Below are positions 3,599 to 28,584 of a DNA stretch of 64,000 nucleotides, in pieces. Each line of letters starts with the position of its first letter. The stretch's first letter is position 1. The notes beneath the pieces are model-generated. The model made no database searches. It was not told the DNA's origin and saw nothing but the letters and a program-made list of their open reading frames with translations. Both the position numbers and the translations under genes were made by a program. Source of the DNA: an uncultured Bacteroidia bacterium (GTDB lineage: Bacteria > Bacteroidota > Bacteroidia > Bacteroidales > F082); contig CADBZW010000012.1 of assembly GCA_902799345.1 (NCBI GenBank), positions 29,914-93,913 of the forward strand, given 5' to 3'.

Positions 3599-6500
3599 TT
3601 ATTCATCCAAATAGTAGCTGCTGAGGAAACCGTTCAACCGGTCGGTGATCAGCCCTTCCATCTCGGTGCGCTTGTATTTGGTGGCAACCTTTTGGAAATG
3701 GTGGAGCAGACTGATGCCTTCTTCCAGATCTTCATTGTAATACTCCCTGAACTTCGGCTTCATGTTTCCATAATACTGCACCTTGTCGCTGTAGTTGTTG
3801 ACCAGCTTCATCATATATTCGTCGCCCTTCAGCGTGTCGCCGCAGACGTAGTACATCTCGGGGAACTGATAGGTGCGGATTTCGGCGGGGAACTTCTTGT
3901 CGGGGAAGAACTCCTGGAACTTGTCCATCACGATGACGGCCGAGTCGTATTGTTGGTGGTTGACCAAAGCCTGCGCCAAGCGTGAATAGGCCAACTGCGC
4001 ATATTGGATTTCGCGCACACTCTCACGGTCGGGCACCACGCCGTCCTGGTTCATGCTGCCCCAGTTGACGATGCCCTCGTTGGCCTTGTTGACCAATAGG
4101 TCGTAGCTGCCTTTGCGATACACGCCGCCTCGGTAGCCTTTTACGTAGTCCTCGGCTTCGACAGGCATGAAACGGTAGGCCAAGCCTTCCATGTGCAAGT
4201 ATTTTTCGATGCCCAAGGAACTCGACATATCACTGAACGAGGTGAAATACACGGGGCGTTCCCAATTGTTGGTGGCCATGAAGTCGAGGAGCATGAGCGC
4301 GTTCTTATAGATGGCTCTGCTGTCCTTGATGTCCCAATCAATTTCGTCGACGATGCGGTCGGCCAGCTCGGGTGGCACGATGCCGTTGCGCAGGCAGGCT
4401 TCCTTGTCGACGGTGATTTTCACGCTACGGCAAGGGATGTAGTTGTAGGAGCCGCCTGGATAGCGTTTCACGGCCTTGGGGTTGTGGATGAAGTCGATGA
4501 CTTGCTTGAGTTCCACACGTTTGCCTTTGAAGTATTCTTCTTCCTCGATGAGCACTTGCTCATTGACGCCATTGTCGTATTCCTTAGCAGTCAGCGTGAG
4601 CGGCAATGGGTCGGATTCATACACCTTGCGGTCCATCTGGTGGACGTACCAATAGCCGCTCGACAGCATGAAGTTGCACACGCGCACGTCGGTGCGGAAG
4701 CCTTCCACCTCTTGCACGTACCACAAGGGGAAGGTGTCGTTGTCGCCACGGGTGAAGATAACCGAGTTGGGCGGCAGCTGTGCGAGGTAGTTTCTTGCCC
4801 AGTCGCGTGCCGAGGTCTTGCCAGAGCGGTTGTGCTCTTCCCAGCCATTGGCGGCCAACACGCAGGGCACTGCAAGGAAGCAGAGCGCCCCCACCAAGAT
4901 GGTGGTAATCATGCTTTGTTTCTTTGTCAACTTGTTGATGCCATCAATAATGGCGATGACACCGAAGCCAATCCAGATAGCGAAGGCGTAGAACGAGCCG
5001 GCGTATGAATAGTCACGTTCACGCGGCTGGTTGGGTGTTTGGTTCAGGTAGATGATGATGGCCAAACCGGTGAGGAAGAATAGCAGGAAAATAATCCAGC
5101 TCTGCTTCAGGTCGTTTTTGAGAAGCCAGAACAAGCCAATCAAGCCGAGGATGAGGGGCAGGAAGTAGTATGTCGTACGTCCTGGGTTCTGCAAGCAGGC
5201 AGGGATGTTGTCCTGGTCGCCGAGTCGGGCATTGTCGATGAAGCTGATGCCGCTCAGCCAGTTGCCGTGGTTCAGCTCGCCTTGGCTCTCAATGTCGTTC
5301 TGACGGCCCACAAAGTTCCACATGAAATAGCGCCAATACATCCAGTTGCATTGGTAGCTGATGAAGAATTTGAGGTTTTGCCCGAAGGTGGGCTTGCTGA
5401 CGTTGACCGTTTCGCCCAAGTAGTTCCTGACGCGCAGGTTTTCGCCCTCGATGTTGCCGTTCGGGCCCTTGCGATAGTTCTCGTATGTCTTTTTGTGTGA
5501 GCCACCTGGTTGCATACTCCACATGCGCGGGAAGAGGGTTTTCATCTCGTCGGCATACTCGGGCTTGCTGCGTTTTCCGTCGTCGGTGATGACGTAACGA
5601 CCGGCTTCTTTGTCCTTGACGTATGTCGGGGCATTGTCGACCCAGTCGGAAATCGGGGCGTTGTAGTAAGGCCCATAAAGCAACGGCCAACTGCCATATT
5701 GGTCGCGGTTGATGTACGACAGCATCGAAAGGGCTTCCTTGGGCTCGTTCTCGTTGATGGGCGTGTTGGTGTTGGCGCGGATGATCAGCATGAAGAACGA
5801 GGAATAGCCAATCAGGATGAACATGAAGGCGAGGATGGCGGTGTTCCAAATCACCTTGCCGCGTTTGGCCGTGTACCAAAGTCCCCAAATGATGAGGCCG
5901 ATGATGATGGCGAAATACACGATGGAGCCGAGGTTGAACGGTGCGCCGAGGGTGTTCACGAAGAACAGCTCCGTCTTACCCGCCAGGTTGATGATTTGCG
6001 GCACGAGGAACATGTTGAGGAACCACAGCAGCACCAATGAGACCACGCCAGCCAGCAAGAAGCCGCCAAACGAGGTCTTCTTCCACTTCTTGAAATACAC
6101 CACGTAAACAATGGCGGGCACGCACAGCAAGTTGAGCAGGTGGACACCGATGGACAAGCCGACGAGGAACGCGATGAAGATAAACCATCGGTAGCTCTTC
6201 GGGTCGTCGGCCACTTGTTCCCACTTCAGGATGGCCCAGAAGGTGACAGCGGTGAAGAACGACGACATGGCATAGACCTCGCCTTCCACGGCGTTGAACC
6301 AAAACGACTCGGTGAAGGTGTAAGCCACGGCGCCGATGAATCCGGCCAGCAGCACACCTATTTTATTAACCCATGGAGCATCTTCGCCTTCCTTCATCCA
6401 CACTTTGCGAGCCATCATCGTGATGGTCCAGAAGAGGAAGACGATGGTGAGGCCGCTGCAGATGGCCGACATCACGTTGACCATCATGGCTACCTTGGTG

Positions 6501-6712
6501 ACGTCGCCACCGGCAAAGAGCGTGAAGAAACGCCCAATCATCTGGAACAAAGGTGCCCCAGGCGGGTGACCCACTTGAAGTTTGTAAGCCGTTGAGATGT
6601 ACTCGCCGCAGTCCCACCAACTCACGGTAGGCTCAAGCGTGAGGAAATACACGACGGTGGCGATGATGCCTGCCAACCATCCTGTAATGTTGTTTAACCT
6701 TTTGAAAGTCAT
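3599..6712 (-). CDS. DUF2723 family membrane protein (GT117, protein O-mannosyltransferase-like)
   Basis: The 1037-residue protein starts with the conserved DUF2723 block: LTEP-like LEPTVSWWDCGEYI at about 25-39, then QVGHPPGAPLF at about 47-57. Acidic residues in the first extracytoplasmic loop are typical of GT-C fold glycosyltransferases. Roughly ten or more hydrophobic segments fill residues 10-620. The C-terminal ~400 residues are soluble and end in a helical, TPR-like region (YSRLAQALVNHQQYDSAVIV). The family is broad in Bacteroidota and related to TMEM260 and protein O-mannosyltransferases. Transfer of a sugar to secreted proteins is inferred, not proven for bacterial members. The gene is monocistronic between the terminator at 3543-3581 and a -7 element at 6769-6776. 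Confidence 0.88.
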   Translation of the reverse strand: MTFKRLNNITGWLAGIIATVVYFLTLEPTVSWWDCGEYISTAYKLQVGHPPGAPLFQMIGRFFTLFAGGDVTKVAMMVNVMSAICSGLTIVFLFWTITMMARKVWMKEGEDAPWVNKIGVLLAGFIGAVAYTFTESFWFNAVEGEVYAMSSFFTAVTFWAILKWEQVADDPKSYRWFIFIAFLVGLSIGVHLLNLLCVPAIVYVVYFKKWKKTSFGGFLLAGVVSLVLLWFLNMFLVPQIINLAGKTELFFVNTLGAPFNLGSIVYFAIIIGLIIWGLWYTAKRGKVIWNTAILAFMFILIGYSSFFMLIIRANTNTPINENEPKEALSMLSYINRDQYGSWPLLYGPYYNAPISDWVDNAPTYVKDKEAGRYVITDDGKRSKPEYADEMKTLFPRMWSMQPGGSHKKTYENYRKGPNGNIEGENLRVRNYLGETVNVSKPTFGQNLKFFISYQCNWMYWRYFMWNFVGRQNDIESQGELNHGNWLSGISFIDNARLGDQDNIPACLQNPGRTTYYFLPLILGLIGLFWLLKNDLKQSWIIFLLFFLTGLAIIIYLNQTPNQPRERDYSYAGSFYAFAIWIGFGVIAIIDGINKLTKKQSMITTILVGALCFLAVPCVLAANGWEEHNRSGKTSARDWARNYLAQLPPNSVIFTRGDNDTFPLWYVQEVEGFRTDVRVCNFMLSSGYWYVHQMDRKVYESDPLPLTLTAKEYDNGVNEQVLIEEEEYFKGKRVELKQVIDFIHNPKAVKRYPGGSYNYIPCRSVKITVDKEACLRNGIVPPELADRIVDEIDWDIKDSRAIYKNALMLLDFMATNNWERPVYFTSFSDMSSSLGIEKYLHMEGLAYRFMPVEAEDYVKGYRGGVYRKGSYDLLVNKANEGIVNWGSMNQDGVVPDRESVREIQYAQLAYSRLAQALVNHQQYDSAVIVMDKFQEFFPDKKFPAEIRTYQFPEMYYVCGDTLKGDEYMMKLVNNYSDKVQYYGNMKPKFREYYNEDLEEGISLLHHFQKVATKYKRTEMEGLITDRLNGFLSSYYLDE

Positions 6713-6922: not shown

Positions 6923-6993
6923 TGTCGAGTGGTGTAATGGCAGCACTGCAGATTTTGGTTCTGCCTGTCAAGGTTCGAATCCTTGCTCGACAA
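6923..6993 (+). tRNA. tRNA-Gln (anticodon TTG)
   Basis: The 7-bp acceptor stem pairs TGTCGAG (6923-6929) with CTCGACA (6986-6992), followed by discriminator A. The anticodon stem is GCAGA/TCTGC around loop TTTTGGT, with anticodon TTG at 6955-6957. The T-arm contains GGTTCGAATCC. The CCA end is not encoded. The gene has its own promoter and is followed by a terminator. Confidence 0.95.
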
Positions 6994-6995
6994 CT

Positions 6996-7029
6996 TAAGG
7001 TGGAAGAAAAGATAAGGTGGAAGAAAAGA
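6996..7029 (+). repeat. Perfect 17-bp tandem duplication
   Basis: The word TAAGGTGGAAGAAAAGA occurs at 6996-7012 and again at 7013-7029, directly after the tRNA. The second copy forms part of the 5' side of the terminator stem. Confidence 0.8.
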
Positions 7030-18043: not shown

Positions 18044-19195
18044 CTAAACCATAAACTCTTCCAAAGAGGAGAACAATATCTCTTTGAGTTCCTCTTTGTG
18101 CTCGGGCGTGGTCTGCGTGAACAGGAAGCCCCACACACTCATGGCGGGGTTCATGATGTCGCGGGTCTCCAACACGCCATGGAAGTGCCGCTTGATGCGC
18201 TCGAAGTCGAGCTTGCGGTTGGTGTCGTAAGGCTTGTCTAAGACGATGAAGCTGAACACGTCGTTCTCGATGCCGTCCCACATTGTGGCGTAGTCGGGGT
18301 GGATGCCCTCGAAATAGCACTGTACAGGCAGCAGGTGGCAGGTGTGACGCGTCAGGTCGTTGAGGCACATGCCGGCGAAACGCAGCGGGTTGACCTCGAT
18401 CGGGATGGCACGACCCGAGTTCTTGTCGACGCGGAACTCCACGTGCATCGGGAAGTTTTTCAGTCCGAGCACGCCGTTCAGGTCGATGCAGAACTGGTTG
18501 AAAGCCGGATAGTTGGCCTCGAAGATCTGCTTGCTCATGCAGTAGAGGCGGTCGCTGACATCGGTCTCGTCCTTGAAGATATGGTGGAAGATGTTGATGA
18601 TGTTGGGCTTGCCCTCGGCATCATAGTAGGCATCCACGGCATATTCCTCGCCTTCGATGAACTGTTCAAGCACAAACTTCTCGCTGCGCACCACGGTCTC
18701 GGGGAACACGGCGCACTGCTTGGCGAAGTTGTGGTCGATGTCGTCCAAAGCGGCCTGCCATTCAGCCTTGTTGCGGACGATGTACACGCCCACGCTGAGG
18801 AAGCCAACTGCGGGTTTCAGCACCAAAGGCAGCGGCAACTCGTCGGGGTTGAGGCTGCGCAAGGCTTTCATCTCCACCTCCTTGTAATAGAAGTCGGGAT
18901 AGATTTGCTGGCAGATGCGACGGAAAGCGGCCTTGTCCTTCAGGATCTTGACCTTTTTCACCAACTCCGACTCGGGCAGCTGGGCATAGAGCCACACCAA
19001 GGCATTCTCGGAGACGGCATAGAGTTGGTTGGTTTGGTTGTATCTTTCAACGAACTGTTTGTCGTCCAAAAGGTTGAGTTGGTGGCCTTGGTGTTTCAGC
19101 ACCTCGGCCATGTCGTTATGCAAAACGGGGATTTGTTTCTCTTCCAGATAGGCCACCAAAGGGGCGGAAACGTATGGTTTTTCTAAAATGATCAT
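18044..19195 (-). CDS. ATP-grasp domain protein, orphan, coupled to purA
   Basis: The 383-residue protein has an N-terminal Rossmann-like part, then an ATP-grasp core. ELPLPLVLKPAVGFLSVGVY is the ATP-binding loop with its Lys, FVLEQFIEGEEYAVDAYY is the central strand pair, and MHVEFRVD with IPIEVNPLRFAG is the metal-binding Glu/Asn pair. Such enzymes join a carboxylate to an amine or thiol with ATP. Its ATG (19195) overlaps the stop of the full-length purA frame (19192-19194) by ATGA, so it is translationally coupled to purine synthesis or simply co-transcribed. The substrate cannot be inferred. It is not purK, purD or carB, whose signatures and lengths differ. Confidence 0.8.
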   Translation of the reverse strand: MIILEKPYVSAPLVAYLEEKQIPVLHNDMAEVLKHQGHQLNLLDDKQFVERYNQTNQLYAVSENALVWLYAQLPESELVKKVKILKDKAAFRRICQQIYPDFYYKEVEMKALRSLNPDELPLPLVLKPAVGFLSVGVYIVRNKAEWQAALDDIDHNFAKQCAVFPETVVRSEKFVLEQFIEGEEYAVDAYYDAEGKPNIINIFHHIFKDETDVSDRLYCMSKQIFEANYPAFNQFCIDLNGVLGLKNFPMHVEFRVDKNSGRAIPIEVNPLRFAGMCLNDLTRHTCHLLPVQCYFEGIHPDYATMWDGIENDVFSFIVLDKPYDTNRKLDFERIKRHFHGVLETRDIMNPAMSVWGFLFTQTTPEHKEELKEILFSSLEEFMV

Positions 19196-20469
19196 CTCAA
19201 AATGTTTTGTGTTCTGTCAGGGCCGTACGAAACGAATTTGATCGGCACGCCGACGTAGTTTTCAATGAATTTGATGTAGTCTTCCAGCTTCTGCGGAATC
19301 TTGCCTTCGATTTTCTGCTGCCAGCCGGGGAGTTCCGTGTAGACAGGTTCCATGGTCTCGGTGCAGGCGGCGAAGGGCAGATGCTTGGTCTCTTATCCGT
19401 TGTAGCGGTAGGCGGTGGCGACTTTCAGGGTGGCGAAGTCGTCCATCACGTCGCTCTTCATCATCATCAGGTCGGTGACGCCGCTGAGCATGACGGCATA
19501 TTTCAGCGCAGGTAGGTCGAGCCAGCCGCAACGACGTGGACGACCCGTGGTGGCACCAAACTCGTGACCGTTTTGGCGGAGCATCTCGCCCGTCTCGTCA
19601 AACAACTCGGTGGGGAAGGGGCCTGTGCCCACGCGGGTGCAGTAGGCCTTGAAGATGCCGTACACTTTGCCGACTCTGCTTGGAGCAACGCCCAAGCCAG
19701 AGCAAACACCCGCAGCGATGACATTCGACGAGGTCACGAAAGGATAGCTGCCGAAGTCCACATCGAGCATGGAGCCCTGGGCGCCTTCGGCCAGCACTTT
19801 CTTGCCGTTGTCGAGGGCCTCGTTGATGAAGTATTCGCCGTCGACGAACTGATATTGCTTCAGGTATTCGATGCCTTCGAACCACAGCTTCTCGTACTCG
19901 GCGAAGTCGAGACCGTCGAGTTGGAAGCCTTGCATTTCGAAGCCGAGGCCGGCAATTTGCTGCAGGTGGGCTTTCTTCAGGCTCTCGTATTTCTCACGGA
20001 AGTCGGGCGCGTTGATGTCGCCGATGCGGAGACCCCTGCGGGCGGTCTTGTCGGTGTAGGTGGGGCCGATGCCTTTCAGCGTGGTGCCGACTTTCATCTT
20101 ACCTAAGGCCTTCTCGTTGGCGGCGTCCATGGCGCGGTGGGTGGGCAGGATGAGGTGGGCGCGGTTGGCGATCATCAAAGTCTGACGCAGATCGAAGCCA
20201 GCTTCGCGCAGACCTTCGATCTCACCTTTTAATATATGTGGCTCGATGATGACGCCGTTGCCGATGAGGTTGATGCAGCCAGGGGTGAGCACGCCCGAAG
20301 GGATGTTGTGCAGCACAAACTTTCTGCCTTCAAACTCGATGGTGTGACCGGCATTGGGCCCGCCTTGGAAACGGCAGACGATGTCATAGTTCGGGGTGAG
20401 GGCATCGACGACCTTGCCTTTGCCTTCGTCGCCCCATTGTAAGCCTAAAAGTATGTCTATTTTGTTCAT
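19192..20469 (-). CDS. purA: Adenylosuccinate synthetase with an in-frame premature stop
   Basis: Converts IMP, aspartate and GTP to adenylosuccinate in AMP synthesis. The N-terminus has the GDEGKGK loop (13-19, catalytic Asp14) and GGPNAGHT with His42. The frame is stopped by TAA at 19393-19395 after 358 residues. In the same frame, without any shift, it continues for 66 conserved codons (YTELPGW, then VSYGPDRTQN) to TGA at 19192-19194, giving 425 codon positions, the normal family length. The lost part contains the conserved GPDR segment that helps bind GTP. The stop could be a nonsense mutation, an assembly error or a readthrough site. All other genes here use TAA as a normal stop, so a recoded genome is excluded. 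Confidence 0.92.
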
Positions 20470-20568: not shown

Positions 20569-21012
20569 TCAACTTTTCTTATGTCCATAAAATATCAACG
20601 AATGATGCGTAATCTCCACCCCCAGTTGCTCTTCTATCGATTTTTGGATCTCCAAAAGGCGCGGGTCGCAAAACTCCATGACGGTTTCGGTCTCCAGGTC
20701 GATGAAGTGGTCGTGCTGGCGGAACTTGTAGGAGCGTTCGTACTGAGCGCAGTTGTGCCCAAACTGGTGCTTGATGACCAAGCCGCAGTCGAGCAGCAAC
20801 TCGATGGTATTATATAAGGTGGCCCTGCTGACGCGGTACTTGTTGTCTTTCATCTGGTTGTACAGCGAGTCGATGTCGAAGTGCCCGTTGGTCGAGTAAA
20901 TCTCCTTGAGGATGGCGAATCGCTCGGGGGTCTTGCGCAACTTCCTCCGCTGCAGGTAGTCGATGAATAACTTCTTGACGGCCAGATAGGTATTGTCAAA
21001 TGAGTCTTTCAT
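20569..21012 (-). CDS. Fur-family metal-responsive transcriptional regulator
   Basis: The 147-residue protein has the Fur winged helix (LRKTPERFAILKEIY, VSRATLYNTIELLLDCGLV) and a C-terminal dimer domain. Candidate metal ligands are His44, His100-Asp101-His102, Glu113 and His136/137. The structural-zinc CxxC pairs are absent; only one Cys (Cys115) remains there. It could sense iron, peroxide (PerR-like) or zinc, and sequence alone does not decide. A minus-strand -7 box TATCTTTG at 21035-21042 gives it its own promoter after the RelA/SpoT gene. Confidence 0.88.
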   Translation of the reverse strand: MKDSFDNTYLAVKKLFIDYLQRRKLRKTPERFAILKEIYSTNGHFDIDSLYNQMKDNKYRVSRATLYNTIELLLDCGLVIKHQFGHNCAQYERSYKFRQHDHFIDLETETVMEFCDPRLLEIQKSIEEQLGVEITHHSLIFYGHKKS

Positions 21013-27652: not shown

Positions 27653-28584
27653 GCAAGGTCATCAAATCGACGGGCAGCTGGTACATCGTCCTCGACGAGA
27701 CAGGACGGCAGTGGGAGTGCCGTTTGCGTGGCAAAATCCGCTTGGATGGCATCCGTAGCACCAACCCTGTTGCCGTGGGCGACAACGTGCAGTTTGAGCA
27801 GGAGCCTGGTAAGGAGACCGGCGTCATCAAGAAGATCGAGCCGCGCGACAATGTGATTGTCCGCCAGTCGGTCAACCTGAGCAAAGCCTCGCATATCATC
27901 GCCGCCAATGTGGATTTGGCCATCGTGGTGGCCACCATCGCCCAGCCCCGCACCTCGACGGGCTTCATCGACCGTTTTCTGGTCACCGCCGAAGCCTACC
28001 ACATCCCCGCCGCCTTGATTTTCAACAAGTGCGACCTCTACACCGACGAGCAAATAGGGGAGATGTGCGTGCTGATGGAATACTACCAAAGCCTCGGCTA
28101 CACCTCGTTCGGCGTGTCAGCCAAAACGGGCTTCCAAGTCGACCAACTGAAGGATTTGATGAAGGGTAAGATTTGCTTGTTCTCCGGCCATTCCGGTGTG
28201 GGCAAGTCGGCCCTCGTGAACGCCCTTGACCCCTCGTTGAATGTCCGTATCGGCGAGATTTCGGACTACCATGAGAAAGGCAAGCACACCACCACCTTTG
28301 CAGAGATGCATCGTCTAGGATTCGGTGGATGGATTGTCGATACGCCTGGTATCAAGGAATTTGTGCTGTACGACCTTGAGAAAGAGACGCTGGCGCAGCG
28401 TTTCCCCGAGATGCGTAACCTGATGAGCGAATGCCGTTTCGCCAACTGCACCCACACACACGAACCCGGTTGTGCGGTGAAAGCCGCTGTCGAAAACGGT
28501 GACATCGCCGACTGGCGTTATGTGAATTACATCCGGATGATGACCGACGAAAGCCATGAATCTGTGAAAGAAGAAGGATTGTAG
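27646..28584 (+). CDS. rsgA: Ribosome small-subunit-dependent GTPase A
   Basis: Circularly permuted GTPase that acts late in 30S assembly. An N-terminal OB fold (about 1-75) precedes the permuted motifs: NKCD (127-130) comes before the P-loop GHSGVGKS (181-188) and DTPGIKEF. A C-terminal zinc site is formed by Cys263, Cys268, His270 and Cys276. Its 312 residues match the family. It overlaps dprA and is followed by nadK. Confidence 0.96.
   Translation: MLGKVIKSTGSWYIVLDETGRQWECRLRGKIRLDGIRSTNPVAVGDNVQFEQEPGKETGVIKKIEPRDNVIVRQSVNLSKASHIIAANVDLAIVVATIAQPRTSTGFIDRFLVTAEAYHIPAALIFNKCDLYTDEQIGEMCVLMEYYQSLGYTSFGVSAKTGFQVDQLKDLMKGKICLFSGHSGVGKSALVNALDPSLNVRIGEISDYHEKGKHTTTFAEMHRLGFGGWIVDTPGIKEFVLYDLEKETLAQRFPEMRNLMSECRFANCTHTHEPGCAVKAAVENGDIADWRYVNYIRMMTDESHESVKEEGL

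Follow-up and report, generated by a model that had tools for sequence, protein, structure and literature searches.

A close described counterpart of the locus presented here is the spurious pseudogene of assembled genomes. The portions of Cooley and Wright (2024; PMC11017572) drawn on here attribute many frameshift and internal-stop pseudogenes to assembly errors. They also put the share of internal-stop pseudogenes on which nearly identical genomes disagree at an average of only 8.2%, and this figure counts against reading the stop described below as an error. The gene concerned, purA, is named in an excerpt of PMC3547785 among those essential in vitro in Porphyromonas gingivalis.

In the window (the whole stretch of DNA analysed, 64,000 bases), purA is cut by an in-frame TAA after 358 codons, and PurA-like coding resumes in the same frame for 66 codons, up to a TGA that shares the motif ATGA with the start of the ATP-grasp gene (Table 1). 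All of this had been described in an earlier note on the same DNA, and its coordinates were confirmed. The segment past the TAA does hold, as that note had said, the GPDR element, which we take to be part of the GTP site. The two pieces match consecutive parts of the Pfam profile PF00709 separately (cut-off 27 bits), which is more than chance would give. If the stop is ignored, the whole gene scores 539.2 bits over profile positions 1–416, with a single internal TAA. Residues 11–64 of the tail align with residues 365–423 of the solved PDB chain 1ade_A, presumably the E. coli enzyme. In the assembly as written there is no uninterrupted frame that includes the C-terminal GPDR part.

Table 1. Features of the interrupted purA gene and its neighbours (positions in the window).
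Feature	Position	Strand	Evidence
purA, open front piece of 358 sense codons	19396..20469	-	PF00709, 473.2 bits, profile 1-345 of 416
In-frame TAA, codon 359 of purA	19393..19395	-	sense codon at 46/46 other genus loci
purA, last 66 codons, past the TAA, including GPDR	19195..19392	-	PF00709, 51.2 bits, profile 351-416
TGA, expected purA end, overlapping the next ATG as ATGA	19192..19194	-	
ATP-grasp gene, downstream of purA	18044..19195	-	PF13535, 195.4 bits; ATG at 19195-19193
Fur-family regulator, upstream of purA	20569..21012	-	PF01475, 86.5 bits

The coupling of purA to the ATP-grasp gene, which had been called intact, is real at this locus but is not conserved throughout. Among the eight nearest loci with gene ends shown, the ATGA junction is present at four (L199, L200, L207, L211), while at the other four (L202, L005, L209, L212) purA ends in TAA without the ATGA overlap.

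As the earlier note had proposed, a second purA was sought in the rest of the genome, and the codon at the stop was compared in related genomes. The genome (G000; 51 contigs totalling 3,126,171 bases; completeness 90.79%, contamination 1.01%) is probably a metagenome draft, and its named matches, the nearest at 65% identity, suggest the order Bacteroidales. It gave a single PF00709 match, the one carrying the internal TAA, and no second purA was found by this search. The codon-359 position of the 46 other purA loci of the genus that were read encodes Gln (35), Lys (8), Glu (2) or Val (1), so that most relatives differ from GAA, which had been offered as an example of the parent codon. Nor was a stop found at this position in any of 109 other loci of the genus, order and phylum, a set that takes in 23 of the 46 genus loci; since the alignment column is variable among these, the residue at codon 359 itself is not critical. 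The relatives set yields a purA match in 38 of its 40 genomes and the genus set in 98 of 99, the genome under study being included in both. Among the 97 other genomes of the genus set that match, 94 have an open frame of at least 402 codons (upstream open sequence may be included), and in the remaining three (G087, G095, G108) purA is partial or split. In G095 the purA frame is broken by a perfect tandem duplication of 17 bases (L229, 4338). The nearest relative of the interrupted gene is locus L199 of G091, at 95.5% DNA identity.

The stop is thus present in this assembly and absent from the relatives compared, while conservation persists in the tail. Most likely the TAA arose as an error of assembly or consensus, and we infer that the assembly, rather than the cell, carries it. 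A miscalled or minority base in the assembled consensus would have created the TAA, and the underlying gene would be a working, full-length purA of 425 codons encoding an ordinary adenylosuccinate synthetase. The three options named in the earlier note (error, recent nonsense mutation, readthrough) were the right set, left unranked there; the evidence given here and below now ranks them, with error favoured.

How old the stop can be is indicated by the state of the tail. In comparisons with the five nearest relatives of the first set, omega is 0.011–0.044 in the tail and 0.016–0.043 in the front piece. Comparisons with more distant relatives sometimes show weaker constraint in the tail than in the front piece (L024, 0.335 vs 0.100; L022, 0.226 vs 0.142), tail dS being computable for 16 of 23 pairs. 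As those relatives have no stop at codon 359, the laxer values are read as a tail that is probably more variable within the genus. On the branch leading to this genome since its split from L199, with changes assigned by the majority of 20 other loci, the front piece has acquired 25 silent and no amino-acid changes, and the 66-codon tail two silent changes and one amino-acid change, at which the same base is also present in 3 of the 20 other loci. By a hand estimate, a tail under no constraint over the whole branch would have gathered about 16 amino-acid changes, and the one seen would confine any such release to roughly the final third of that branch. An old pseudogene is ruled out by these omega values and branch counts, which reveal no relaxed constraint after the stop. 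The undecayed tail means that the stop is either young or not in the cell.

That the stop is a real and very recent nonsense mutation is accordingly possible, if on the whole doubtful. The strain would have lost PurA and would live on purine nucleosides or nucleotides supplied by its neighbours, or the allele would be a short-lived null in the population. An undecayed tail is predicted here too, though it permits a young event only, and the surrounding sequence is clean, with no frameshift and no excess of private amino-acid changes. Two genes of the deoxynucleoside kinase family exceed the Pfam cut-off in this genome, and their products could in principle phosphorylate adenine nucleosides. 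The other salvage routes are less accommodating. A hypoxanthine phosphoribosyltransferase lies over its cut-off, but this route leads to IMP, from which PurA is still required. Three PfkB proteins exceed the Pfam cut-off, and none of the three matches an adenosine kinase family in NCBIfam. No adenine phosphoribosyltransferase (apt) over the cut-off was found in the genome; this is a weak point against the mutation, and the absence of apt is only weakly shown, as the model passes in just 6 of 14 controls and the genome is 90.8% complete. Across 30 genus genomes, this one included, the apt model gave some match in 22 and a passing one in 5. The one weak match in the present genome (25.9 bits, cut-off 185.85) proved to be orotate phosphoribosyltransferase. 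A purB match over the cut-off has no internal stop. These salvage findings, together with the essentiality of purA in P. gingivalis, imply that a truncated PurA should be costly, and no natural purA nonsense allele in Bacteroidales was found among the literature matches listed.

It is very improbable that the stop is genuine and that a near-cognate or suppressor tRNA reads through it to yield full-length PurA in sufficient amount. The residue found in most relatives could be restored if a Gln tRNA read the stop as a near-cognate codon, and the conservation of the tail is what translation would leave, though error or a young mutation would predict it equally. No stop-reading tRNA occurs among the 41 tRNA genes found with Rfam in this 90.8% complete genome (40 typed by ARAGORN and the last, Asp, by eye from its sequence). 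The sequence downstream of the stop does not fold better than its shuffles (z -0.67; 53 of 200 fold as well), and none of the relatives compared retains the stop. The excerpt of PMC9481147 used here puts UAG readthrough in Pseudomonas putida at 0.01% and names only UAG and UGA reporters. TAA is also the final stop of 24 of the 47 greedy ORFs of the window, the cut purA being counted among the 24. The earlier note had ruled out genome-wide recoding on such use of TAA, and recoding of that kind is indeed unsupported. Scarcely credible is a PurA working as two separately translated pieces. There is an ATG 13 codons past the stop, and both pieces are conserved; re-initiation at that ATG would lose the first 13 codons of the tail, however, and none of the 46 genus loci is split at codon 359. 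We know of no split PurA.

Assembly or consensus error, the preferred reading, draws on what else is broken in the same assembly. The purA lesion is private to this one assembly, the frame being open in close relatives, and three other conserved genes are broken in about 494 kb of the genome (of 3126 kb; the whole of C12, 94 kb, plus 200 kb from each of contigs C4 and C5), by a type of lesion that differs from that of purA. These three genes favour error. That a sixth of a single draft genome contains four broken genes, including the sole enolase found, points to assembly faults. The finding was also picked for its stop, so that one such stop needs only a low error rate.

The sample was searched with a codon-usage detector of in-frame stops, which is blind to frameshifts and which recovered 363 of 1625 virtual stops at its strict setting and 929, 1159 and 1307 of 1625 at looser ones. 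Its candidates at the successive settings numbered 4, 8, 15 and 22; those lacking an ATG within 7 codons, namely 1, 2, 3 and 6, were the ones inspected. At the strict setting purA was the single candidate without a near ATG, and the next setting (929/1625) added one C4 gene. Among the six from the loosest setting, purA and a phosphohexomutase gene continue in frame past the stop, those at 28582 and 52274 are the ends of window ORFs, and the last two lie at C5 67439 and C4 37545. Within the window, a comparison of genes with seven relatives, covering 41,112 of the 64,000 bases, found no other broken gene among those compared. The other in-window stop matches were placed by hand comparison antisense to or upstream of window ORFs, except for a short minus-strand ORF at about 37617.

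The three further lesions are perfect tandem duplications. In the phosphohexomutase gene (C4, about 138321; L195, 18321) an 18-base duplication creates a TAG. The identity of this gene rests on matches below the NCBIfam cut-offs; an ortholog was found in 6 of the 10 other genomes searched and is open over 576–592 codons in all six, and two distant relatives in the same genome are both without stops. A NuoF-type gene (C4, about 1337; L189), examined within the sampled stretches of this genome, is shifted out of frame by a 76-base duplication. In the enolase gene (C4, about 65836; L192, 5836; also L252 and L255), a 32-base duplication shifts the frame. This is the only enolase found in the genome, and it lies in two pieces; it is 99% identical to the G021 protein on both sides of the break and so, like purA, is undecayed. 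In all, the 494 kb hold 15 perfect tandem duplications, of which three break a coding frame, and 588 kb of relatives scored in the same way hold 11, of which none does. These 588 kb were not a random sample, having been chosen around purA and the enolase region, and they do not include the broken enolase of G091 or the broken purA of G095, which came to light in other ways. Extra matching bases were absent at all five duplication joints, a weak observation because random joints would do the same about half the time each, by our estimate. Another perfect 17-base tandem duplication lies at window positions 6996–7029, just after a tRNA-Gln gene (6923–6994).

The pattern extends beyond this genome. 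In ten other genus genomes, enolase is whole in five, in two pieces in G091 and without a match in four (G093, G020, G064 and G003, listed as 99, 100, 80 and 71% complete, with G020 8% contaminated). The two pieces in G091 (L253, 2357) are in different frames because of a perfect 32-base duplication that is different from the one described above and elsewhere in the gene. The syntenic stretches read in G093 and G064 retain one side of the neighbourhood and lack the enolase block. Conserved genes are thus broken by perfect tandem duplications (17 to 76 bases) in this assembly, in G091 and in G095, which looks like an assembler fault. As 4 of 11 genus genomes show no enolase, a broken one here may be less absurd than it sounds, and this counts against the reading of error. 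It seems very improbable that the stop and the duplications in the enolase, NuoF-type and phosphohexomutase genes are all real, in which case members of the genus would carry fresh, possibly reversible knock-outs of central metabolism and would depend on cross-feeding. If the duplications were real, central metabolism would be switched off here in an unusual manner.

Three further points weaken the case for error. A single codon is affected in purA, whereas the other three lesions are duplications, which makes the link between them one of association. All three duplication-broken genes lie on contig C4, and none on C12 or C5. Lastly, the window has no raised rate of private amino-acid change: in the 15 of its 47 genes for which all five relatives were available, 12 nonsynonymous and 96 synonymous changes are private to this genome (ratio 0.125), and the five relatives range from 0.054 to 0.178. 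An error-rich window is therefore unsupported. Eight of the 12 private amino-acid changes fall in one gene (window 3599–6712).

In a draft genome, a solitary stop within a gene that looks essential offers weak support for recoding or for auxotrophy. The locus may be set beside three known systems. With programmed readthrough or recoding, as generally understood, it shares an in-frame stop with coding sequence conserved beyond it; it differs in that the stop is not kept in relatives and that neither a stop-reading tRNA nor a downstream structure was found. The spurious assembly pseudogenes of Cooley and Wright (2024; PMC11017572), in the portions of that study drawn on here, were recognised from nearly identical genomes and reassembled reads, whereas the present case is judged from the assembled sequence of a single genome of its species; the likeness lies in an internal stop, close relatives with an open frame, and other genes broken as well. 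From the PurA family (PF00709) the gene as written would depart through a product lacking its last 66 residues with the GPDR element. With the stop ignored it resembles that family in full, being a single-copy gene that covers the profile from 1 to 416.
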